Source: an uncultured Ruminococcus sp. (GTDB lineage: Bacteria; Bacillota; Clostridia; Oscillospirales; Ruminococcaceae). Taken from it: a stretch of DNA of 64,000 nt. The notes under the pieces were generated by a model. It ran no database searches. It saw nothing but the letters and a program-made list of their open reading frames with translations, and was not told the DNA's origin. The position numbers were made by a program, and so were the translations under genes. Shown here in pieces: positions 2,136-12,688 of the stretch; positions within the stretch are counted from its first letter, which is position 1; every line of letters begins with the position of its first letter. The stretch lies in the NCBI GenBank assembly GCA_949291125.1, contig CASEUJ010000038.1:1-64000 (forward strand), written 5' to 3'.

Positions 2136-2141
2136 ATGAAC

Positions 2142-3518
2142 ATGGAGTATCGCATTGAGCATGACTCAATGGGCGAAGTCAAGGTGCCTGCTGACAAGTA
2201 TTGGGCGGCGCAGACAGAGCGCAGTCATGAGAACTTTCCGATTGGCGTCGGGATCGAGACGATGCCGCGGGAGATCACACACGCATTCGGCATTCTGAAA
2301 AAAGCGGCTGCCATTGCCAATCATAAGCTGCGTCCGGAGAAAATGACGGATCAGAAGCTGGCTGCTATTTCTGGTGCCTGTGATGAGGTGATCTCTGGAT
2401 CCCTCAACGAGCATTTTCCGCTTGTCGTATGGCAGACGGGAAGTGGCACACAGTCGAACATGAACGCAAACGAAGTTATCGCCAATCGCGGCAATGAGAT
2501 CGCCGGAGAAAAGCTTTTGCATCCAAACGATGATGTCAACATGAGCCAGTCATCGAACGATACGTTCCCGACGGCAATGCACATCTCCGCAGTTCTGGCG
2601 ATTGAAGACCGCGTTCTGCCAGCGATCGATACGCTGACGGCAACGCTGTCTCGACTGGAAGAAGAACATGAGGGGATCGTTAAGAGCGGCAGAACCCATC
2701 TTCAGGATGCAACGCCCATTAAGTTCTCCCAGGAGATCAGTGGCTGGCGCACATCGCTGGAACGTGATCGCGAGATGCTGGTTTCGGCACTGCCATATCT
2801 GAAAACACTTGCACTCGGCGGTACGGCAGTCGGCACAGGCCTGAACGCACCGAAAGGCTTTGACGTAGAGGTGGCAAAGGCTGTTTCTGAACTGACTGGG
2901 AAGGAATTCATTACGGCAGAAAACAAGTTCCATGCGTTGACGAGCAAGGATGAAATCGTCTTTGCGCACGGCGCACTCAAGGCGCTTGCGGCAGACATGA
3001 TGAAGATTGCCAATGATGTTCGCTGGCTGGCAAGCGGTCCGCGTGATGGTCTCGGCGAGATCACCATTCCGGAAAATGAGCCGGGTTCGTCGATTATGCC
3101 GGGCAAAGTGAATCCGACTCAGTGCGAACAGGTGACAATGGTCGCAGTTCAGGTGATGGGCAACGATGTGGCAGTCGGCATGGCGGCTTCGCAGGGCAAC
3201 TTCGAGCTGAATGTATTTATGCCGGTTTGCGCCTATAATTTCCTCCAGTCCGCGCGTCTGCTGGCAGAGTCCATTCTCTCCTTTAATAATAATTGTGCAG
3301 TTGGCATCCGTGCAAACCGTGAAAAGATGCATCACAACCTGCACAATTCGCTGATGCTGGTAACAGCGCTCAATCCGTATATTGGTTATGAGAACGCGGC
3401 AAAGACGGCGAAAAAGGCGTTCCGCGAGAATATCTCTCTGAAGGAAGCATGCGTATCGCTGGGCTTTTTGACGGAAGAACGTTTTGATGAAGTGTTTCAT
3501 CCGGAAGAGATGGTATAA
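2142..3518 (+). CDS. fumC: Fumarate hydratase, class II
   Basis: This enzyme interconverts fumarate and malate. The protein has 458 residues, the usual length for the class II (iron-free, tetrameric) family. The superfamily signature GSSIMPGKVNPTQCE is present, as are TGSGTQSNMNANEV near residue 105 and SSNDTFPT. The start at 2142 lies 7 nt after the AGGAGAG site; the ATG at 2136 would be too close. It is followed by a terminator and then the Hdr-Flx-fumarate reductase genes, which suggests it supplies fumarate from malate for reduction to succinate. Aspartase-like relatives share the fold, but the signature and context favour fumarase. Confidence 0.95.
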   Translation: MEYRIEHDSMGEVKVPADKYWAAQTERSHENFPIGVGIETMPREITHAFGILKKAAAIANHKLRPEKMTDQKLAAISGACDEVISGSLNEHFPLVVWQTGSGTQSNMNANEVIANRGNEIAGEKLLHPNDDVNMSQSSNDTFPTAMHISAVLAIEDRVLPAIDTLTATLSRLEEEHEGIVKSGRTHLQDATPIKFSQEISGWRTSLERDREMLVSALPYLKTLALGGTAVGTGLNAPKGFDVEVAKAVSELTGKEFITAENKFHALTSKDEIVFAHGALKALAADMMKIANDVRWLASGPRDGLGEITIPENEPGSSIMPGKVNPTQCEQVTMVAVQVMGNDVAVGMAASQGNFELNVFMPVCAYNFLQSARLLAESILSFNNNCAVGIRANREKMHHNLHNSLMLVTALNPYIGYENAAKTAKKAFRENISLKEACVSLGFLTEERFDEVFHPEEMV

Positions 3519-3669: not shown

Positions 3670-4452
3670 ATGACATACAGTTATTTCCCTGGCTGTACGC
3701 TCAAGACAAAGGCAAAGGATCTTGATCGCTATGCGCGGATCTCTGCTGAAGCGCTTGGGTTTACGCTGGAAGAGATTCCTCAGTGGCAGTGCTGCGGCGG
3801 TGTGTACCCAATGGCAAAGGATGAGATTGCAACCAAGCTTTCGTCCATCCGGACATTGGCAAAGGCAAGAGATATGGGTATGCCCCTTGTGACCTTGTGC
3901 TCTGCCTGTCATAACGTGGTCAAGCAGGTCAACCATGACATGCAGACCGATGAGAATATTGTGCTGAAAGCGAACAATTACTTGAAGCTTGACACACCGT
4001 ATCAGGGCGAAACGGAAGTGCTGCACTATTTAGAAGTGCTGCGCGACAAGGTTGGCTTTGATGAACTGAAGAAAAAAGTGGTAAATCCTCTGACAGGCAA
4101 AAAGATTGCGGCGTATTACGGTTGTCTTTTGCTCCGTCCGGGCAAGACCATGCAGATGGATAATCCGGAAAATCCGAAAATCCTCGAAGATTTTATCCGC
4201 GCCATTGGTGCGACGCCGGTGCTCTATCCAATGCGCAATGAGTGCTGTGGCGGCTATCTGACGCTCGATGAAAAATCGGTGGCACAGTCTCGCAGTAACA
4301 AGGTCATGACAAGCGCAAAGGAAAACGGCGCAGATCTTGTGATTACGGCATGTCCACTTTGTCTGTATAACCTCCAGAAGAATTCTGGCGTGTCGGATCT
4401 GCCGGTCGTGTACTTTACCGAGCTGCTGGCACAGGCGCTCGGTCTGGAATAA
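3670..4452 (+). CDS. hdrB: Heterodisulfide reductase subunit B-like protein (two CCG domains)
   Basis: HdrB carries the site that reduces a disulfide on two unusual [4Fe-4S] clusters. This 260-residue protein has both CCG motifs complete: Cys9, Cys41-Cys42, Cys77 and Cys80 in the first, and Cys152, Cys192-Cys193, Cys228 and Cys231 in the second. The start at 3670 follows an AGGAAAGG site; an earlier in-frame ATG lacks one. It is the first gene of a tight nine-gene run ending with fumarate reductase subunits. In methanogens the substrate is CoM-S-S-CoB and in sulfate reducers probably DsrC; neither is expected here, so the real partner is open. I infer that it hands electrons, directly or via a thiol, to the fumarate reductase encoded downstream. 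Confidence 0.9.
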   Translation: MTYSYFPGCTLKTKAKDLDRYARISAEALGFTLEEIPQWQCCGGVYPMAKDEIATKLSSIRTLAKARDMGMPLVTLCSACHNVVKQVNHDMQTDENIVLKANNYLKLDTPYQGETEVLHYLEVLRDKVGFDELKKKVVNPLTGKKIAAYYGCLLLRPGKTMQMDNPENPKILEDFIRAIGATPVLYPMRNECCGGYLTLDEKSVAQSRSNKVMTSAKENGADLVITACPLCLYNLQKNSGVSDLPVVYFTELLAQALGLE

Positions 4453-4464
4453 GGAGGCGCAAAA

Positions 4465-4851
4465 ATGGCAGATTACAAAGAACTCGTTTTGCGGGCAAGC
4501 GGCGTCAATCCGCTGAAGTGTATGCGCTGCGGAAAGTGCAGCGGTACCTGTCCGTCCTATGATGCAATGGAGTATCATCCGCATCAGTTTGTCTATATGG
4601 TGGAAAAAGGTGACATTGAAAAGCTTATGGCATCGAAATCCATTTACACCTGCCTCTCCTGCTTTGCCTGTGTGGAACGCTGCCCGCGTGATGTAGAACC
4701 GGCAAAACTTGTAGAAGCAGTCAGACTCGCTGTGATTCGTCAGCAGGGATGTAATCACCTCAAGTCGGAGCAAATTCCGGAAGCAGTCGCCATCGACGAA
4801 GATTTGCCGCAGCAGGCAATTGTCAGTGCGTTCCGGAAATACAGCAAATAA
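4465..4851 (+). CDS. hdrC: Heterodisulfide reductase subunit C-like ferredoxin protein
   Basis: This is a 128-residue electron-transfer subunit that relays electrons from HdrA to HdrB through two [4Fe-4S] clusters. The cluster motifs are CMRCGKCSGTCP (about residues 19-30) and CLSCFACVERCP (about 62-73). AAGGAGG lies 8 nt before the ATG, and only 12 nt separate it from hdrB. Length and motif spacing fit soluble HdrC rather than the membrane HdrE/D type. Confidence 0.9.
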   Translation: MADYKELVLRASGVNPLKCMRCGKCSGTCPSYDAMEYHPHQFVYMVEKGDIEKLMASKSIYTCLSCFACVERCPRDVEPAKLVEAVRLAVIRQQGCNHLKSEQIPEAVAIDEDLPQQAIVSAFRKYSK

Positions 4852-4863
4852 GGAGGCATAAAA

Positions 4864-6864
4864 ATGCGGAGAATAGGTGTTTTTGTATGCCACTGCGGTA
4901 CGAACATTGCGGCGACTGTAGATGTCAAGACGGTTGCGGAAACTCTTGGAAAAGAACCGGCAGTTGTCTTCTCGACAGATTACCCTTACATGTGCTCAGA
5001 GGCAGGCCAAAACATAATTAAAGATGCAATTAAGGAACAAAAGCTCGATGGTGTTGTCGTATGCTCCTGCTCGCCTCGTATGCATGAGACAACGTTCCGT
5101 AAGGCGGTTTCAGCGGCTGGGCTGAACCCTTATATGCTCGAAGTTGCAAACATCCGTGAGCAGTGTTCATGGATTCATAAAGATATCGAAGAGGCAACGG
5201 CAAAGGCAATCGTCCTCGGTCGCGCGGCTATCGCAAAAGTACAGCTCAATGCACCGCTGATCGCCGGCGAAAGCCCGGTTACGAAGCGTGCACTGGTCAT
5301 CGGCGGCGGTATTGCTGGCATCCAGACTGCGCTCGATATTGCAGAAGCCGGTTTCCCGGTCGATATCGTGGAAAAAGAACCCACCATTGGCGGCAAGATG
5401 ACCCAGATCGATAAGACGTTCCCGACGCTCGACTGCTCGTCCTGTATCCTGACCCCGAAAATGGTAGAGTGCGCACAGAACGAAAATATCACGATCTACT
5501 CCTACAGTGAGATCGAAGCTGTGACTGGTTTTGTCGGAAACTTTACCGTCAAGATTCGCCGCAAAGCACGTTATGTGGATGAGGATAAATGTACCGGGTG
5601 CGGTCTGTGTACGGAAAAATGCCCGGTCAAGAATGTGCCGGATGCCTATAACTTAGGGCTCAGCAATCGCCATGCGGCGTACATTCCGTTTGCACAGGCA
5701 ATTCCGAATGTGGCTGTTCTCGACGCGGAACACTGCATCAAGCTGACCAAGGGCAAGTGCGGTCTTTGCTCGAAGGTATGTTCTGCTGGTGCGATTGACT
5801 ATGAGCAGAAAGAACGCGTCATCGAAGAAAAGTATGGCGCAATTGTTGCGGCTACTGGTTATAACCCGATCAATATCGACGGCTATGACGAATTTGCATA
5901 CTTGCAGAGCAAGGATGTTCTGACTTCGCTCGAATTTGAACGCATTCTTAAGGCAGACGGCCCGACCGAAGGTCATCTCCAACGTCTGTCTGATGGCAAA
6001 CAGCCAAAGACGATTGTTTTTGTACAGTGTGTCGGCAGCCGCGAATCCGGCTCGACTCATGGCTGCGGTAAGGAATATTGCTCGAAGATCTGCTGTATGT
6101 ATACCGCAAAGCACGCAATGCTTTGTCGCGAAAAATATCCGGATACCGATGTCTATGTCTTCTACATCGATGTTCGTACACCGGGTAAAAACTATGACGA
6201 ATTCTATCGTCGTGCCGTAGAGCAGTACGGCGTACATTATATTAAAGGTATGGTCGGCAAGGTTTCGCCGCAGGCAGATGGTACACTCGATGTACAGGCG
6301 TCCGACCTGCTCTCCAATGAACAGCTCCATGTCAAGGCAGATATGGTCGTTTTGGCGGCTGCGATCGAGGCAGATAAGTCGGCGCGTCCGCTTGCAACCA
6401 TGCTCACAGCAAGTATGGATACCAATGATTTCTTCACCGAAGCACACGCAAAGTTGCGTCCGGTAGAATCGCCGACGGCCGGCGTATTCCTCTCTGGCGT
6501 CTGCCAGGGTCCAAAGGATATCCCGGAAACAGTTGCACAGGCTGGCGCGGCTGCGTCGAAGGTCATTGGTCTGCTCGCAAAGAATAAGCTGACCGGTAAC
6601 CCATGTGTGGCACACTCCGATGAACTGAAGTGTAACGGATGTTCGTCTTGTGCAAATGTCTGCCCGTATGGCGCGATCACATACGAAGAAAAGGACTTCA
6701 GCCGCAGAAGAGACGGCACTCTCTTGCGCCGTGTGGCGTCTGTCAATGAGGCAGTCTGCCAGGGCTGCGGTGCATGTACCGTTGCTTGCCCGTCCGGTGC
6801 AATGGATCTGAAGGGCTTCGCAACAAGTCAGATTATGGCGGAGGTAGATGCAATATGCAAGTAA
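4864..6864 (+). CDS. hdrA: Heterodisulfide reductase subunit A-like flavoprotein
   Basis: HdrA holds the FAD thought to split electron pairs in flavin-based electron bifurcation. The protein has 666 residues, a normal full length. The N-terminal Cys-rich domain shows CHCG, YMCSEAGQ and CSCSPRMHE. A Rossmann motif GGGIAGIQTALDIAEAG begins near residue 147. Insert ferredoxin clusters are CTGCGLCTEKCP and CGLCSKVC, and two C-terminal ones are CNGCSSCANVCP and CQGCGACTVACP. AAGGAGG precedes the ATG. Its end overlaps the start of the next gene by 10 nt. All expected clusters are present, so it should be functional; whether it really bifurcates here is inference. Confidence 0.92.
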   Translation: MRRIGVFVCHCGTNIAATVDVKTVAETLGKEPAVVFSTDYPYMCSEAGQNIIKDAIKEQKLDGVVVCSCSPRMHETTFRKAVSAAGLNPYMLEVANIREQCSWIHKDIEEATAKAIVLGRAAIAKVQLNAPLIAGESPVTKRALVIGGGIAGIQTALDIAEAGFPVDIVEKEPTIGGKMTQIDKTFPTLDCSSCILTPKMVECAQNENITIYSYSEIEAVTGFVGNFTVKIRRKARYVDEDKCTGCGLCTEKCPVKNVPDAYNLGLSNRHAAYIPFAQAIPNVAVLDAEHCIKLTKGKCGLCSKVCSAGAIDYEQKERVIEEKYGAIVAATGYNPINIDGYDEFAYLQSKDVLTSLEFERILKADGPTEGHLQRLSDGKQPKTIVFVQCVGSRESGSTHGCGKEYCSKICCMYTAKHAMLCREKYPDTDVYVFYIDVRTPGKNYDEFYRRAVEQYGVHYIKGMVGKVSPQADGTLDVQASDLLSNEQLHVKADMVVLAAAIEADKSARPLATMLTASMDTNDFFTEAHAKLRPVESPTAGVFLSGVCQGPKDIPETVAQAGAAASKVIGLLAKNKLTGNPCVAHSDELKCNGCSSCANVCPYGAITYEEKDFSRRRDGTLLRRVASVNEAVCQGCGACTVACPSGAMDLKGFATSQIMAEVDAICK

Positions 6865-7295
6865 ATGGAAATTACAGACCGAAAGTTGTCGCATTCTGCT
6901 GTAACTGGTGTTCGTATGCAGGTGCCGATTTGGCGGGAACAAACCGCTCGAACTATCCGGCAGATGTCAAGATCATTCGTGTTCCTTGCTCTTGCCGCGT
7001 CAATCCGCTCTTTATTCTGCGTGCGTTTCAGCGCGGTGCAGACGGCGTAATCCTCTGTGGATGTCACCCGGGCGACTGCCACTACAGCACCGGTAACTAT
7101 TATGCACGCCGCAGAATGACGCTGCTCTTTTCGATGCTCGATTATCTGGGCATTGAGAAGGAACGTACCCGTGTGGAATGGGTATCCGCCGCTGAGGGTG
7201 CGAAGTTTGCAGAAACCATGAATGAATTCGTGGCAACGGTGGCTTCCCTTGGCGAGAATAAGAGACTGGAGGATCTGAGATGCAAGACACAATGA
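6855..7295 (+). CDS. flxD: MvhD/FlxD-like iron-sulfur adaptor protein
   Basis: This 146-residue protein resembles the delta subunit of F420-non-reducing hydrogenase (MvhD), which links an electron-input module to HdrA through a [2Fe-2S] cluster. Visible Cys motifs are FCCNWCSYAGAD at the N-terminus, VPCSCRVNP and GCHPGDCHY. The start at 6855 has GGAGGTAG 8 nt upstream and overlaps the hdrA stop. In FlxABCD-HdrABC sets this gene is called flxD. No hydrogenase large or small subunit follows; NAD(P)H-handling genes do, so the electron input is probably NADH rather than H2. Confidence 0.88.
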   Translation: MQVNGNYRPKVVAFCCNWCSYAGADLAGTNRSNYPADVKIIRVPCSCRVNPLFILRAFQRGADGVILCGCHPGDCHYSTGNYYARRRMTLLFSMLDYLGIEKERTRVEWVSAAEGAKFAETMNEFVATVASLGENKRLEDLRCKTQ

Positions 7296-8254
7296 GGAAA
7301 AGAGCCTCTGAGCTGTTGGCAGACGGTACCGTTGTACGTGTGCTGGGCTGGAAAAATGGTGAGTTTGTCTACGATCCGACACCGGCTGTCTTCGACTCAG
7401 CCGAGGCTCTCGAAAAGGATTTTGTATATCACGATTTTTGTGGAAGCAATCTTTCCAAATATCTGATCAAGATTTCAAGGCTGGAGGGTAAGACGCTCGT
7501 CTTCTTAAAGCCCTGTGATTCTTATAGCTTTAACCAGCTTCTGACCGAACACCGTATCCGTCGCGAAAATGTCTATATCGTCGGCATCCCGTGTGATGGA
7601 AAGCTCGATCCGGATACCGTTCGTGCATCCGGTGCAGAGGGCATTCTCGGTGTCAAGACAGAAGGCGACAACATCGTGGTAGACACCATGTATGGCGATG
7701 TAACGCTCAATCGCGAAGACTGCCTATTGGAACGTTGTAAAAACTGCAAGAGCAAAAAGGTCGTTGTCTTCGACGAAATGCTCGGAGAAAACGGTGAAGT
7801 ATGCGAAGACTGCAAGCGCTTTGATGAAGTGGAAAAGCTCGAGGCGATGACACCGGATGAACGTTTTGCATTCTGGCGCGGTGAGTTGTCGCGCTGCATC
7901 CGCTGTAATGCATGCCGCAATGTATGCCCGGCGTGCAGCTGTGAACAGTGCGTTTTCGATAACCCGGCTTCTGGCGTATCCCAGAAGGCTGCGGCGGATT
8001 CTTTCGAAGAAAACATGTTCCATATCATCCGCGCATTCCACGTTGCAGGACGTTGTACCGACTGTGGGGAATGTTCACGCGTATGTCCGCAACACATTCC
8101 GCTTCATCTGCTCAACCGCAAGTTCATCAAAGATATCAATACGTTCTATGGCGAATATCAGGCAGGCGCAGAAGAGGGAAGCCGTGCACCACTGGTGAAC
8201 TTTACGCAGGAAGACTGCGAACCGAGCATTGTATATAAAGGAGGCAGCAAGTGA
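7280..8254 (+). CDS. flxC: FlxC-like 4Fe-4S dicluster protein
   Basis: The protein has 324 residues. Its N-terminal half (about 1-150) has no cofactor motif I recognise but resembles the beta-subunit-like domain of this family. A four-Cys group CKNCKSKK...CEDCKRF follows. Two ferredoxin clusters come next, CIRCNACRNVCP and CTDCGECSRVCP. Such proteins pass electrons between the NAD(P)H-oxidising FlxA/B subunits and FlxD-HdrA. It overlaps flxD by 16 nt, with a GGAGG site inside the upstream gene. The assignment to FlxC rests on motif order and position, so the exact subunit letter is less sure than the general role. Confidence 0.75.
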   Translation: MQDTMRKRASELLADGTVVRVLGWKNGEFVYDPTPAVFDSAEALEKDFVYHDFCGSNLSKYLIKISRLEGKTLVFLKPCDSYSFNQLLTEHRIRRENVYIVGIPCDGKLDPDTVRASGAEGILGVKTEGDNIVVDTMYGDVTLNREDCLLERCKNCKSKKVVVFDEMLGENGEVCEDCKRFDEVEKLEAMTPDERFAFWRGELSRCIRCNACRNVCPACSCEQCVFDNPASGVSQKAAADSFEENMFHIIRAFHVAGRCTDCGECSRVCPQHIPLHLLNRKFIKDINTFYGEYQAGAEEGSRAPLVNFTQEDCEPSIVYKGGSK

Positions 8255-9285
8255 TGAAAAAGATTTCTCGTTCTGAATTGGACGCGCTGTTCGCTGCCAT
8301 TGCCGAAGGAAAAAAGCTCTATCTGCCGGTGGTGGACGGAGGCGATGAAAAGCGTGGCGCAAAGTATGCGGCATGGGAGCCGGGTACGCAGTATTGCGGC
8401 ACTGTCAACACCGTGCGTAGTGCCAAAGACTTCTTCTTCCCGCAGGTGGAACGTCTGGTGAACTTCAAGATGGAGGGCAAGACCATCGAGATCGACGACA
8501 TCCGCGAAGAATGCGAAGATTTCGTGCTGTTCGGCGTGCGTGCATGCGATGCGGCAAGCTTTCAGATTCTCGACACCGTTTACCTCGTTGAACCGGTAGA
8601 CAGCTATTATCAGAATCGCCGCGAACATGGCGTTGTCATGACCATGGCGTGTGGCAGACCATCGGAAACCTGTTTCTGCTCCGTATTTGGAATTGATGCT
8701 GCAGAGCCGGCAGGGGACGTTAGCTGTTGGATGACCGAGGACGAAGTTCTTATGCAGGCAAACACCGAAAAGGGTGAAGCACTCTTGGCGTCTCTGCCGA
8801 TGCTGGAAGATGCTGCGGATGATGCCGCAGACGACGCAAAGGCTTCGATCCGCAAGGTGCTCAATAAGCTGCCGCTTAAGGATCTTTCGACCGACTCGTT
8901 CGGCGGCGACAAGCTTATGGAGCTGTTTCAGTCGGATAAGTGGCCGGGTCTGGCAGAGGCTTGTCTGGGCTGCGGCACATGTACCTTTGTATGCCCGACC
9001 TGTCAGTGCTATGATATCCGTGATTTCGACACCGGACATGGCATCCAGCGTTTCCGCTGCTGGGATAGCTGTATGTATTCCGACTTTACCAAGACAGCAG
9101 GCGGCCAGCCGCGTCCGACCCAGGTAGAGCGGTTCCGCCAGCGTTTTATGCATAAGCTGGTATATTATCCGGCGAATAACGACGGCAATTTCGGATGCGT
9201 GGGCTGCGGTCGATGCCTGAAGAGCTGTCCGATCTCAATGAACATTGTAAAAGTAATGAAGACATTGGAGGGGGATCACGAATGA
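8254..9285 (+). CDS. flxB: FlxB-like (sulfite reductase A-like) 4Fe-4S dicluster protein
   Basis: The 343-residue protein resembles the iron-sulfur subunit found beside AsrB/FlxA-type flavoproteins. The N-terminal region includes the family segment VLFGVRACDAASFQILD, and the C-terminus carries two clusters, CLGCGTCTFVCP and CVGCGRCLKSCP. An acidic Ala-rich insert (about residues 180-195) is unremarkable. The ATG at 8254 is 8 nt from AAAGGAGG and its first base is the last base of the flxC stop. It should form the NADH-oxidising module with the next gene. Confidence 0.78.
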   Translation: MKKISRSELDALFAAIAEGKKLYLPVVDGGDEKRGAKYAAWEPGTQYCGTVNTVRSAKDFFFPQVERLVNFKMEGKTIEIDDIREECEDFVLFGVRACDAASFQILDTVYLVEPVDSYYQNRREHGVVMTMACGRPSETCFCSVFGIDAAEPAGDVSCWMTEDEVLMQANTEKGEALLASLPMLEDAADDAADDAKASIRKVLNKLPLKDLSTDSFGGDKLMELFQSDKWPGLAEACLGCGTCTFVCPTCQCYDIRDFDTGHGIQRFRCWDSCMYSDFTKTAGGQPRPTQVERFRQRFMHKLVYYPANNDGNFGCVGCGRCLKSCPISMNIVKVMKTLEGDHE

Positions 9286-10109
9286 GACAGGAAATGTTAA
9301 TTCCGAAGATCGGCGTTGTCACAGACATTCGGATCGATACTCCGGACGTCAAGACCTTCCGCGTAGTCGGACTTGACGGAAAGAAAGTCTTTGAACATAT
9401 GCCCGGTCAGTGTGCGATGCTCTCGATCCCGGGCGTCGGAGAAGGTATGTTCTCCATTACCTCGTCGCCAACCAATACCGAATTCATGGAATTCAGCATC
9501 AAAAAGTGCGGCTGTCTGACAAGCTGGCTGCACATGATGGAAGTAGGACAGCAGGTGACGATTCGCGGACCGTATGGCAAGAATTTCCCGGTAGAAACTG
9601 ATCTGAAGGGAAAGGATCTGCTCTTTATTGCCGGCGGTATCGGTCTGGCGCCACTTCGTTCGGTAATCAACTATTGCCGCGATAAGAAGGAAAACTATGG
9701 TTCGCTACATATCATCTATGGTTCTCGTTCGAAGGACGACTTGGTGGACTATAAAGAAATCCTCGATGAGTGGATGGCAGACGACAATGTCCGCGTGGAT
9801 CTGACGATCGACCGGCCGCAGGAGGGCTGGGACGGACACGTTGGCTTTATCCCGAGCTTTGTGGAAGAGTTACAGCCCGATCTGAACCGCACTGTCCTGA
9901 TGTGCGGACCTCCGATCATGATCAAGTTCACCCTCGATGGCCTGAAAAAGCTGGGATTCCAGGAAAATCAGGTCTATACGACAATGGAACTGCGTATGAA
10001 GTGCGGGATCGGCAAGTGTGGACGCTGTAACATCGGCGATAAATATGTCTGCAAAGACGGTCCGGTATTCCGCTTTGATGAACTGTCCGAACTGCCGGAT
10101 GAATATTAA
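9282..10109 (+). CDS. flxA: FlxA-like FAD/NAD(P)H oxidoreductase with [2Fe-2S] centre
   Basis: This 275-residue protein belongs to the ferredoxin-NADP reductase / AsrB / PyrK superfamily and is the probable NADH entry point. The FAD-binding motif is MFSITSSP, and the nucleotide-binding part shows GGIGLAPLRSVI and MCGPPIM. The C-terminal Cys group CGIGKCGRC...YVCKDGPVF binds a [2Fe-2S] cluster. The start at 9282 follows GGAGGGGG and overlaps the flxB stop as ATGA, indicating coupled translation. NAD+ versus NADP+ preference cannot be read by eye. Confidence 0.87.
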   Translation: MRQEMLIPKIGVVTDIRIDTPDVKTFRVVGLDGKKVFEHMPGQCAMLSIPGVGEGMFSITSSPTNTEFMEFSIKKCGCLTSWLHMMEVGQQVTIRGPYGKNFPVETDLKGKDLLFIAGGIGLAPLRSVINYCRDKKENYGSLHIIYGSRSKDDLVDYKEILDEWMADDNVRVDLTIDRPQEGWDGHVGFIPSFVEELQPDLNRTVLMCGPPIMIKFTLDGLKKLGFQENQVYTTMELRMKCGIGKCGRCNIGDKYVCKDGPVFRFDELSELPDEY

Positions 10110-10127
10110 TGGTAAAGGAGAATTCAC

Positions 10128-10802
10128 ATGGAACAGATGGTTAATGTGTTCGTGATGGGCAAGAAGTACGAGGTACCTGCCAGCCTGACCATCATGAAGG
10201 CTTTGGAATATGCTGGATATAAGCTGGTTCGCGGCTGCGGCTGCCGCAATGGATTTTGCGGTGCTTGTGCAACGATCTATCGCGTGAAGGGCGACAGAGA
10301 GCTGCATACCTGTCTGGCTTGCTCGACCCAGGTCGTAGACGGCATGTATATCACACAGCTGCCGTTCTTCCCGCTGATCAAGGAGATCTATGACATCAAC
10401 GAAGTGCGCCCGGATGAAACGGTGATGATGAAGACCTATCCGGAGATCTATGCATGTATCGGCTGTAATGCCTGCACCAATGCCTGCACGCAGGAGCTGA
10501 ATGTGATGCAGTATATTGCATACGCTCAGCGTGGGGAATATGAAAAGTGTGCAGAAGAGTCGTTTGACTGCGTTATGTGCGGCGTATGTTCGTCCCGCTG
10601 TCCGGCTGGCATCTCGCATCCACAGGTTGCGATGCTTGCACGCCGTCTCAACGGTAAGTATATCGCACCAAAGTGTCAGCACCTTGCGGACCGCGTAGAA
10701 GAGATTGCAAGCGGAAAATGCGAAGAGGCGATTCGTGCAACAATGGCACTCGATGATGCGGCGATCCGTGAAATGTATAACACACGTGAAATCGAAAAGT
10801 AA
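10128..10802 (+). CDS. Fumarate reductase iron-sulfur subunit (TfrB/FrdB-like)
   Basis: The 224-residue protein has an N-terminal plant-type [2Fe-2S] domain (CGCRNGFCGAC with a distal CLAC, about residues 36-65). Two C-terminal cluster motifs follow, CIGCNACTNAC and CVMCGVCSSRC. This is the layout of FrdB/SdhB, but it lacks the extra CCG domains fused to TfrB of methanogen thiol:fumarate reductase; stand-alone HdrB supplies those domains in the same operon. It should wire electrons to the flavoprotein made by the next gene. No frdC or frdD membrane anchor is encoded in the window, so the enzyme is predicted to be cytoplasmic. AAAGGAG precedes the ATG, and the intergenic gap to the next gene is 15 nt. 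Confidence 0.87.
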   Translation: MEQMVNVFVMGKKYEVPASLTIMKALEYAGYKLVRGCGCRNGFCGACATIYRVKGDRELHTCLACSTQVVDGMYITQLPFFPLIKEIYDINEVRPDETVMMKTYPEIYACIGCNACTNACTQELNVMQYIAYAQRGEYEKCAEESFDCVMCGVCSSRCPAGISHPQVAMLARRLNGKYIAPKCQHLADRVEEIASGKCEEAIRATMALDDAAIREMYNTREIEK

Positions 10803-10817
10803 GGGAGGATCTGCAGA

Positions 10818-12416
10818 ATGTATACAGAAGAAATGCTGGAGTCCATTAAGCTGGTAGAAGCAGCGCGTGAAGAAAACGCTGCAATGGAACCGAGAAGAAT
10901 GACTGCGGAAGAAAAGGACACCTTGCTCAAGACCTATCATCCGGACTATCGTACTGATCAGTTCGATACCATTACCGTAGGTCCGAACAAGGGAGAACTT
11001 GCACCGAAAGAACTCGTTCGTCTGTTACAGGCGCACAGCCGTCTGAAGGACAACCTGCCGGATCTCTCTTGCCCGGACTATGAAACTGATGTTCTGATCA
11101 TCGGTGGCGGCGGTGCTGGCGCATCGGCTGCGATCGAGGCAGATGAAGCTGGTCAGAGAGTCATGATCGTGACAAAGCTGCGTATTGGCGATGCAAATAC
11201 CATGATGGCAGAAGGCGGCATTCAGGCTGCAGATAAACCCAATGATTCGCCGGCACAACACTTCCTCGATGCTTACGGCGGCGGTCACTTTGCAGCAGAC
11301 AAGGAACTCGTATACAAGCTCGTTACCGAGGCGCCGGACTGCATTCAGTGGCTCAATGAGCTTGGCGTAGAGTTCGATAAGGACGAAGAGGGCAATATGA
11401 TTACCACCCATGGCGGCGGGACTTCTCGCAAGAGAATGCATGCGGCGAAGGACTATTCCGGTGCGGAGATCATGCGTACCCTACGCGATGAAGTGCTTAA
11501 CCGCGAGATCCCGGTGGTAGATTTTACCTCGGCAATCGAGTTGATCATGGATGACAAGGGACACTGTGCAGGTGCTGTGCTCCAGAACATGGAAACTGGC
11601 GAGATCCTGATCGCAAAGGCAAAGGTTGTCATCATTGCGACCGGCGGCGCCGGCAGAATGCATTATCAGGGCTTCCCAACCTCGAACCACTATGGTGCGA
11701 CCGCAGATGGTCTGGTACTCGCATATCGTGTGGGTGCACCGCTGCTGTATCAGGACACCCTGCAATACCACCCGACCGGCGCAGCATTCCCGGAACAGAT
11801 CTTCGGTGCGCTGGTTACCGAAAAGGTACGTTCGCTGGGTGCAAAGCTGGTAAACGTCAATGGCGAAGTCTTTATGCATCCGTTGGAAACTCGTGACGTA
11901 GCTGCGGCTTCGATCATTCGTGAGTGCAAGCGCGGCAATCAAGTTAAGACACCGGAGGGTCAGGGCGTATGGCTCGATACACCGATGATCGAACTGAAAA
12001 ATGGTGAAGGTACGATCGAAAAGCGCATCCCGGCAATGCTGCGTATGTTCGGCAAGTATGGCATCGATATCCGGAAACAGCCGATCATCGTTTACCCGAC
12101 ACTTCATTATCAGAATGGCGGCGTAAAGGTCGGCACAGACAGCCAGACCTGTGTGGAAAATCTGTTTGTTGCTGGTGAGGCTGCCGGCGGTGTACACGGC
12201 AGAAATCGCTTGATGGGCAACTCGCTGCTTGATGTTATCGTATTCGGACGCAATGCCGGTAAGTATGCTGCGGCAAAGGCAAAGGATGTTGTCGTTGGTG
12301 AGCTCAATCTCGACCACGTTGGCAAGTTTGAGGCAATGCTTGACGATGCCGGTGTTCAGACCGATGCGGTTTCGCCGATGCTGCTCCCGGACTATGCACG
12401 CAAGGTGAACGGCTAA
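10818..12416 (+). CDS. Fumarate reductase flavoprotein subunit, soluble type
   Basis: This 532-residue protein should reduce fumarate to succinate on FAD. The Rossmann motif GGGGAG is at residues 96-101, after a roughly 90-residue N-terminal extension not seen in FrdA. Catalytic features are kept: HPTG (His318), Arg359 in TRDV, His430 and HGRNRLMGN near 460-468. The position of the flavinylated His in classical FrdA/SdhA is Asn127 (ANTMMAEGG), so FAD is probably not covalently bound, as in thiol:fumarate reductase. Only about 65 residues follow the HGRNRL motif, so most of the usual C-terminal helical domain is missing. It closes the operon. A 3-ketosteroid dehydrogenase or aspartate oxidase role is less likely given the paired iron-sulfur subunit. 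Confidence 0.88.
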   Translation: MYTEEMLESIKLVEAAREENAAMEPRRMTAEEKDTLLKTYHPDYRTDQFDTITVGPNKGELAPKELVRLLQAHSRLKDNLPDLSCPDYETDVLIIGGGGAGASAAIEADEAGQRVMIVTKLRIGDANTMMAEGGIQAADKPNDSPAQHFLDAYGGGHFAADKELVYKLVTEAPDCIQWLNELGVEFDKDEEGNMITTHGGGTSRKRMHAAKDYSGAEIMRTLRDEVLNREIPVVDFTSAIELIMDDKGHCAGAVLQNMETGEILIAKAKVVIIATGGAGRMHYQGFPTSNHYGATADGLVLAYRVGAPLLYQDTLQYHPTGAAFPEQIFGALVTEKVRSLGAKLVNVNGEVFMHPLETRDVAAASIIRECKRGNQVKTPEGQGVWLDTPMIELKNGEGTIEKRIPAMLRMFGKYGIDIRKQPIIVYPTLHYQNGGVKVGTDSQTCVENLFVAGEAAGGVHGRNRLMGNSLLDVIVFGRNAGKYAAAKAKDVVVGELNLDHVGKFEAMLDDAGVQTDAVSPMLLPDYARKVNG

Positions 12417-12441: not shown

Positions 12442-12470
12442 TTGACAAACCCGGAAAAACTGGGTATAAT
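12442..12470 (+). promoter_or_regulatory. Promoter of the P-type ATPase transcript
   Basis: TTGACA and TATAAT, both perfect consensus, are separated by 17 nt. The expected start near 12477 leaves a leader of about 210 nt that holds the riboswitch candidate. Confidence 0.85.
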
Positions 12471-12645: not shown

Positions 12646-12688
12646 ACCTGCTGCATGACGCAGCATCAAAACGAAAGGAATGTTGTGT

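Follow-up and report, generated by a model that had tools for sequence, protein, structure and literature searches.

The window analysed here is a stretch of 64,000 nucleotides from an uncultured Ruminococcus sp. (assembly GCA_949291125.1, contig CASEUJ010000038.1, positions 1 to 64,000 of the forward strand). Between positions 3670 and 12416 it carries nine intact plus-strand genes in the order hdrB-hdrC-hdrA-mvhD/flxD-flxC-flxB-flxA-frdB-frdA, all with uninterrupted reading frames. From hdrB to frdA, successive genes are spaced by 12, 12, -10, -16, -4, -4, 18, and 15 bp, and purine-rich Shine-Dalgarno-like stretches precede the inner gene starts. Two start sites were corrected, to 6855 instead of 6774 for mvhD and to 9282 instead of 9195 for flxA. 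A first-pass annotation had described these genes as a tightly packed operon with a fumarase just upstream and with no gene for a membrane anchor, a hydrogenase, or DsrC, and each part of this description is borne out: the genes are intact, co-directional, and located where they had been placed, and Pfam, NCBIfam, and hydropathy analyses found none of the three in the operon. The nine proteins have no transmembrane-like stretch by hydropathy (19-residue mean maximum <=1.39, compared with 2.76 for the neighbouring P-type ATPase). The upstream gene fumC (2136..3518, plus strand) passes TIGR00979 (704 bits against a cut-off of 664.75) as a class II fumarase, which forms fumarate from malate, and is followed by a gap of 151 bp before the start of hdrB at 3670.

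The first seven genes, all on the plus strand, encode a complete FlxABCD-HdrABC set with its cofactor domains. HdrB (3670..4452), the proposed high-potential outlet towards FrdB, matches PF02754 (CCG) twice. Its two complete CCG motifs (C9, C41, C42, C77, C80 and C152, C192, C193, C228, C231) are predicted to serve two noncubane clusters, and all ten cysteines are kept in 131 of 131 aligned HdrB sequences. The five sequence relatives of HdrB in the PDB are all HdrB from CoB-CoM heterodisulfide reductases. The best NCBIfam match is the MFR anchor SdhE model NF042965, at 160.5 bits and below the cut-off of 500. HdrC (4465..4851) is a dicluster [4Fe-4S] link between HdrA and HdrB, with Fer4_17 over the cut-off and TIGR03290 at E 7.6e-18, under the equivalog cut-off. 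HdrA (4864..6864), the proposed bifurcation site, is an FAD flavoprotein in which one ferredoxin domain region is inserted and another lies at the C terminus. It scores 787 bits with NF040770 (HdrA2) over residues 3-665, below the cut-off of 1100, and the remainder of the model matches the separate MvhD. MvhD/FlxD (6855..7295; PF02662, FlpD, 185.6 bits) is the [2Fe-2S] adaptor that joins HdrA to the NADH module. FlxC (7280..8254) is assigned as the [4Fe-4S] dicluster protein of the NAD(P)H module from Fer4_8 over the cut-off, position, and synteny, and FlxB (8251..9285) as a sulfhydrogenase beta/AsrA-like [4Fe-4S] protein from PF17179 (Fer4_22, 106.6 bits) and ShyB NF040829 (E 1.5e-51, under the cut-off). 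FlxA (9282..10109), which binds FAD and NAD(P)H and is the proposed site of electron entry, matches PF00175, PF10418, and PF00970 over their cut-offs; its [2Fe-2S] domain is of the DHODB type in Pfam.

The frdB gene (10128..10802, plus strand) encodes a protein of 224 amino acids with an N-terminal [2Fe-2S] domain and a C-terminal dicluster domain (Fer2_4 plus Fer4), the latter nearest in fold to HdrC. The dicluster domain has two CxxCxxCxxxC motifs, and all eight cysteines are present in 146 of 146 FrdB sequences (short and low-scoring rows were dropped from the alignments, which kept 146 of 152 FrdB and 140 of 147 FrdA sequences, the window counted). The second four-Cys [4Fe-4S] motif occupies the place of the [3Fe-4S] cluster of complex II, and the cluster set of the complex II B subunit is absent. 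FrdB has no CCG match and scores 34.6 bits against a cut-off of 385 with NF004898 (TfrB); it lacks the FrdB-CCG fusion of TfrB. Structure models of FrdB and FrdA were made for each chain singly. The FrdB model has a low predicted local distance difference test score in the [2Fe-2S] loop (residues 31-50), and a first Foldseek search with it gave three matches at E<=0.001, with TM-scores all low. A second look placed HdrC at the top for residues 94-180, with the diclusters of CODH and RnfC close behind, and the fold matches of residues 3-80 are [2Fe-2S] domains of complex I, hydrogenase, and Nfn. SdhB/FrdB chains are absent among the 50 best fold matches of FrdB listed, which excludes nothing, and the FrdB sequence profile reaches SdhB chains at E 1.7e-5.

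The last gene, frdA (10818..12416, plus strand), is assigned as a fumarate reductase flavoprotein by FAD_binding_2, its active-site residues, and Foldseek, in which the top match of the FrdA model is E. coli FrdA. Residues H318, R338, H430, and R464 align with the active-site motifs of E. coli FrdA, so that the His/Arg set of complex II is present, and are conserved in >=98.5% of the 140 sequences and invariant in the 38 of alignment A1. FrdA differs from complex II in an 88-residue N-terminal extension, in an Asn where the His for covalent FAD would be, and in lacking a match to the C-terminal domain of complex II. Its best NCBIfam match is TfrA, at 349 bits against a cut-off of 718. The assignment of FrdA as NadB was considered and rejected: FrdA scores 286.1 bits with TIGR00551, below the cut-off of 452.75, and the genome of the window has a separate nadB (L152) with 457.7 bits adjoining a nadC-like gene.

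The operon is conserved in the class. In a sample of 291 class genomes, FrdB, called at E<1e-80, is found in 40, and the next match is a ferredoxin-domain protein at E 3.5e-12. A close HdrB is found in 41 genomes, 39 of them shared with FrdB. The mismatched genomes are G071, without HdrB (75% complete), and G032 (62%) and G224 (77%), without FrdB. The gene order of the window is kept in 38 of 39 class-level loci (29 complete, 9 cut by a contig or sequence end); the exception, L050, has frdBA placed first and is cut inside flxB. The order also recurs in all 80 named loci examined, of which 65 are complete and 15 are cut; this sample leans to close kin because it comprises the best 80 of 238 found. 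The two sets overlap partly (e.g., L055 and L116), and their counts are not additive. Since the order recurs across many families, the arrangement is far beyond chance. The linkage of HdrB and FrdA, proposed earlier as a check, thus extends far beyond close strains in the class survey and in the phylum survey described below. Among the class-level loci that reach hdrB and extend far enough beyond it, 13 of 28 have a fumC gene less than 600 bp upstream; for the named loci the count is 60 of 62. An AspT-type permease gene, which we take to belong to the family of the succinate exporter SucE, is found downstream of frdA, at a distance of up to 3 kb, in 24 of 36 class-level loci with enough sequence (41 of 61 named loci) and is missing in the other 12, as it is beside the operon of the window.

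The possible partners of the operon were searched in 42 genomes that carry it (the 40 class genomes, R. callidus, and Merdimmobilis hominis). Sdh_cyt (PF01127) is found in none of the 42 (control positive in 7/14). A UbiA prenyltransferase is over the cut-off in 4, leaving 38 without, and reaches E<=0.001 in 7 (control 14/14). Together with the hydropathy results, these counts make a quinol or membrane route unlikely, the genome-wide searches not having included hydrogenases, non-UbiA menaquinone enzymes, and FrdC/FrdD (PF02300, PF02313). Fumarate reduction dependent on a membrane or quinol, which would have spoken against the first-pass proposal, is likewise unlikely here. DsrC is over the cut-off in none of the 42 genomes, with one sub-threshold match (E 9.5e-4, G179; control positive in E. 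coli only), and was rejected as a thiol carrier. RnfC is over the cut-off in 22 of the 42, including the genome of the window.

A survey of 299 genomes of the phylum, with FrdB and HdrB called at E<1e-20, links FrdB to a subtype of HdrB. HdrB is present in 121 genomes and FrdB in 30, the genome of the window counted. The 20 HdrBs that score best after that of the window carry ten family labels, and every one is encoded by a genome that also has FrdB (20 of the 29 other genomes with FrdB). Five of these 20 are distant from frdBA and lie in a separate hdrB-hdrC-hdrA-mvhD-flxC-flxB(-flxA) cluster (L241-L245; L242 is cut before flxA). In G379, the unlinked HdrB is about 1.5 Mb from frdBA on the same contig, and in the other four genomes it is on a different contig of a draft assembly. 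Because the co-occurrence persists without linkage, it points to a functional partnership of HdrB and FrdB beyond the shared inheritance of one operon. Among the other nine FrdB-bearing genomes, G322, G328, G363, and G368 have a more distant HdrB only, G537, whose frd contig is cut, has a best HdrB match at E 1.1e-39, and G418 has pieces of HdrA and no HdrB match.

In a tree of HdrB, a single branch separates 33 Frd-associated from 15 standard sequences (100/100, 100% of 200 bootstraps). The five unlinked HdrBs were labelled by their similarity rank, and the independent test consists of the linked rows only. The tree left out the named loci except L075 and L136, two thirds of L032-L070, L192 (for which L230 stands in), and HdrBs shorter than 220 amino acids; L251 and L254, standard HdrBs from FrdB-bearing genomes, were counted as standard. 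Gene order follows a similar division: hdrC precedes hdrB in 15 of 15 standard phylum loci, and hdrB before hdrC marks the type of the window. The hdrC-first order is also seen in L203 and, where both genes are visible, in the phylum loci with hdrC-hdrB-frdBA only and in those with further HdrA-like matches. Ten HdrB positions differ between 114 Frd-associated sequences, the five unlinked ones included, and the 15 standard ones. Several are beside cluster ligands (T10, S78, V83, L155, Y196), which is suggestive of a changed outlet or substrate pocket. The standard hdrA genes of L251 and L254 have an in-frame TGA at the position of Cys194 of the HdrA of the window, in the DCSSC motif, and because of this TGA their HdrAs are probably selenocysteine proteins. 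The best hdrA matches of G558 and G368 also contain one TGA each.

Outside the class, FrdBA occurs in several settings. The full gene set is present at 5 of the 29 other phylum loci (L186, L187, L199, L200, L203), and hdrC-hdrB-frdB-frdA alone at three (L184, L201, L188, the last cut before frdA). At eight further loci (L189-L192, L194, L196-L198; L197 is cut), frdBA is preceded by hdr genes with further HdrA-like matches, mvhD, and a FlxC-like gene. By eye, L189 contains a malic enzyme-like gene, hdrC-hdrB-hdrA, a gene for a second HdrA-like protein of 1070 amino acids, mvhD, a FlxC-like gene, frdBA, and Kor- and SucCD-like genes. This arrangement resembles a branch of the tricarboxylic acid (TCA) cycle with two HdrA-type proteins, the Hdr-Frd part of which is also found in L190, L191, L194, L196, and L198. 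FrdBA is therefore an exchangeable module.

We consider it fairly likely that the operon encodes a cytoplasmic, quinone-independent, bifurcating NADH:fumarate/ferredoxin oxidoreductase in which HdrB is wired directly to FrdB. FlxA, with FlxB and FlxC, would oxidize NADH, and MvhD/FlxD would pass the electrons on to HdrA. At the flavin of HdrA the pairs would be split: one electron would go to ferredoxin at low potential, and its partner would travel via HdrC to HdrB. From HdrB, electrons would flow to the dicluster domain of FrdB and the FAD of FrdA, reducing fumarate to succinate with no disulfide reduced. The dicluster domain of FrdB may meet HdrB as HdrC does. In TfrB, the fused CCG part is an analogous partner of its FrdB portion. 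The overall reaction would be 2 NADH + fumarate + 2 Fd(ox) -> 2 NAD+ + succinate + 2 Fd(red), Fd being ferredoxin, and Rnf, where present, may take up the reduced ferredoxin. We infer complex formation, direction, bifurcation, and the HdrB-FrdB contact from sequence. The standard potentials (E0') of NADH and fumarate are -320 mV and +33 mV, respectively. For ferredoxin, a range of -400 to -500 mV was taken from an excerpt of PMC12773636. The net standard energy calculated from these E0' values is -53 to -33 kJ/mol per 2 NADH.

The bifurcating NADH:fumarate reductase of the first-pass annotation thus gains from the conserved linkage and from the unlikelihood of a quinol route. The idea is sound yet not new, having been published in 2019-2020 for other bacteria. 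The available text of PMC7282089 describes a 'succinate operon' of Pseudoclostridium thermosuccinogenes, in which genes for Flx-Hdr are combined with those for fumarase, fumarate reductase, and a putative transporter. The operon is proposed there to couple the reduction of fumarate to that of ferredoxin, and Koendjbiharie & van Kranenburg (Preprints 2019) is cited for the proposal. This operon is upregulated approximately 4-fold under CO2 limitation. In an older study quoted there, H2 gas nearly abolished succinate, which fits the coupling, and the addition of sulfide had the opposite effect, termed confusing by those authors. As judged from the published description, the window shares with it the contiguous fumarase, seven Flx-Hdr, and two fumarate reductase genes, and differs in having a P-type ATPase gene next in place of the putative succinate transporter. 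According to the accessible part of PMC6315080, tfrAB is found among flxABCD-hdrABC and korABCD in reductive TCA clusters of tubeworm symbionts and Thioflavicoccus, and for the symbionts Flx-Hdr was proposed to pass electrons directly to TfrAB and OGOR within one complex. Those clusters resemble the window in combining fumarate reductase genes with Flx-Hdr and differ, again by description, in that their setting is autotrophic and includes ATP citrate lyase, Kor, and Rnf. For Blautia luti, the excerpt of PMC12773636 includes an NADH-dependent fumarate reductase in its pathway model. The sections seen of PMC6776011, PMC8100219, and PMC9044749, the last of which reports CRISPRi in P. thermosuccinogenes, contain nothing on a Flx-Hdr-Frd complex. 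We did not come across the distribution, the unlinked co-occurrence, the HdrB branch, or the FrdB anatomy in the parts of related papers available to us, and they may still be published. A literature search, with most subscription journals outside its scope, found no biochemical test of the complex.

The operon also differs from better-known enzymes. Desulfovibrio vulgaris reportedly has a FlxABCD-HdrABC of seven subunit types, said to have been described by Ramos in 2015. All seven types are found in the window, whose operon type differs in the attached frdBA and in having no DsrC over the cut-off in the 42 genomes. The standard Hdr loci of the phylum surveyed here differ from the window in gene order and in the branch of HdrB. 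Like the TfrAB of methanogens, which is soluble, the proposed enzyme has CCG chemistry beside FrdB and an FrdA closest to TfrA in NCBIfam, but its CCG part is a separate protein that also belongs to Flx-Hdr, and the TfrA score stays below the cut-off. With complex II and quinol:fumarate reductase it shares the catalytic core and active-site residues of FrdA, but not the membrane anchor, the C-terminal domain of FrdA, the covalent-FAD His, or the [3Fe-4S] cluster.

Several observations weigh against the proposed NADH:fumarate/ferredoxin oxidoreductase. Among the fold matches of the dicluster domain of FrdB, HdrC ranks first by a narrow margin only over CODH and RnfC, and in sequence FrdB is closer to RnfC and other diclusters. 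RnfC is over the cut-off in only 22 of the 42 operon genomes, and the others may have to use reduced ferredoxin in another way. In the excerpt of PMC7282089, the rise in expression is not significant for every subunit, and in that of PMC11636981, the symbiont cluster genes are similarly expressed except tfrAB. The linkage is often broken outside the class, with frdBA lacking an adjoining hdrB at 13 of the 29 phylum loci, among which fumarase- or malic enzyme-like neighbours occur. In L202, frdBA is followed by a gene (4848-5855) for a protein that fuses two [4Fe-4S] motifs to a cytochrome b561 domain, possibly a membrane-bound form of the same FrdBA with a different type of anchor; genes resembling it are seen by eye in L210 and L211. 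In L193 and L208, frdBA is preceded by a gene for a 160-amino-acid dicluster protein and, by eye, by FMN-binding/NapH-like genes, with NapC-like multihaem genes in L208, which suggests a membrane electron donor. G356, G359, and G577 carry FrdB yet have no HdrA match better than E 2e-5 and no HdrB over the threshold. Because the frdBA family occurs without HdrB of the window type, FrdBA does not need HdrB, and its exchangeability counts against HdrB as its sole donor. HdrB itself retains all ten cluster cysteines and could therefore still cleave a disulfide.

This last point leads to an unlikely alternative, in which HdrB reduces a thiol carrier, and the resulting dithiol, a small molecule or protein, is reoxidized at the FrdB side, FrdBA being a split bacterial thiol:fumarate reductase. 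Both CCG motifs are kept in 131 of 131 HdrBs, the TfrB of methanogens is an FrdB fused to a CCG domain, NF004898 matches HdrB and FrdB weakly, and the Flx-Hdr of Desulfovibrio is thought to use DsrC. Nevertheless, the lack of DsrC over the cut-off in the 42 genomes argues against such a carrier, as does the alteration of Frd-associated HdrB beside its cluster ligands (S78, V83, L155, Y196), as if the pocket had changed, in comparison with 15 standard sequences. Docking of FrdB on HdrC, or directly on HdrA, would preserve the fumarate coupling and leave HdrB to serve a separate disulfide. Dicluster [4Fe-4S] neighbours at several HdrB-less FrdBA loci would agree with this, that of L193 matching HdrC weakly (E 1.8e-4), but the minimal loci L184, L188, and L201 retain hdrB beside frdB, the HdrB subtype tracks FrdB, and TfrB fuses FrdB with an HdrB-like part; we regard such docking as improbable. 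Sequence cannot give direction or stoichiometry, and the Kor-, SucCD-, and malic enzyme-like genes seen by eye beside frdBA in L189 would allow succinate oxidation there. A plain, non-bifurcating NADH:fumarate reductase, or the reverse reaction, in which succinate oxidation would be combined with reduced ferredoxin, is nonetheless distinctly improbable for the window: HdrA-type proteins include bifurcating members, a non-bifurcating route has no need of HdrA, and the operon is often accompanied in the class by fumC and an AspT-type permease gene. Finally, the TIGR00551 score of 286 bits and the missing covalent-FAD His could indicate that FrdA is an L-aspartate oxidase or another enoate reductase merely co-transcribed with Flx-Hdr. 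This explanation is barely credible given a score below the NadB cut-off, the true nadB elsewhere, the conserved active-site set of FrdA, and the adjoining fumC.

Downstream of frdA, a gap of 263 bp is followed by a P-type cation ATPase gene at 12680; no transporter gene of the kind in the 'succinate operon', a feature not taken as defining for such operons, lies directly downstream. The gap contains a 12/12 match to the sigma-70 consensus promoter (TTGACA-17-TATAAT) at 12442-12470. A scan for promoters and terminators gave a number of sites not above that of shuffled sequences, this match excepted. Because the promoter match and the ATPase gene come next, frdA is probably the last gene of the transcription unit. 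The genome of the window (2.2 Mb, 47 contigs, 87% complete) has an AspT-family permease gene on another contig (G000:C40:115371-119059), adjoining nadB and not the frd operon. Of the cultured organisms among the loci found, Ruminococcus callidus ATCC 27760 is the closest relative, with an FrdB identity of 93%. Succinate is presumably a product of R. callidus, although the literature search did not confirm it; this physiology and the account in PMC7282089 are what tie the operon to succinate formation.

In a wider reading, to which we give an even chance, a subtype of Flx-Hdr with the Frd-type HdrB and mostly the hdrB-hdrC-hdrA order may have exchanged a disulfide for a soluble fumarate reductase as its high-potential outlet, providing quinone-free energy conservation during succinate formation in many gut Clostridia (40 of 291 class genomes). 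FrdBA would then be an exchangeable acceptor module, attached in relatives to HdrBC only, to a set with two HdrAs and Kor/SucCD, to an FeS-cytochrome b561 protein, or to FMN/NapC-like membrane proteins. The survey yields cultured hosts, Ruminococcus callidus ATCC 27760 and Merdimmobilis hominis, and minimal hdrCB-frdBA variants, with which direct wiring could be distinguished from a thiol carrier. If the complex works as proposed, fumarate would be added to the known electron sinks of flavin-based bifurcation. Quinone-less gut ruminococci would gain reduced ferredoxin from succinate formation, and hence ATP where Rnf is present, which would bear on the energy and H2 yields of fermenters and on the supply of succinate in the gut.

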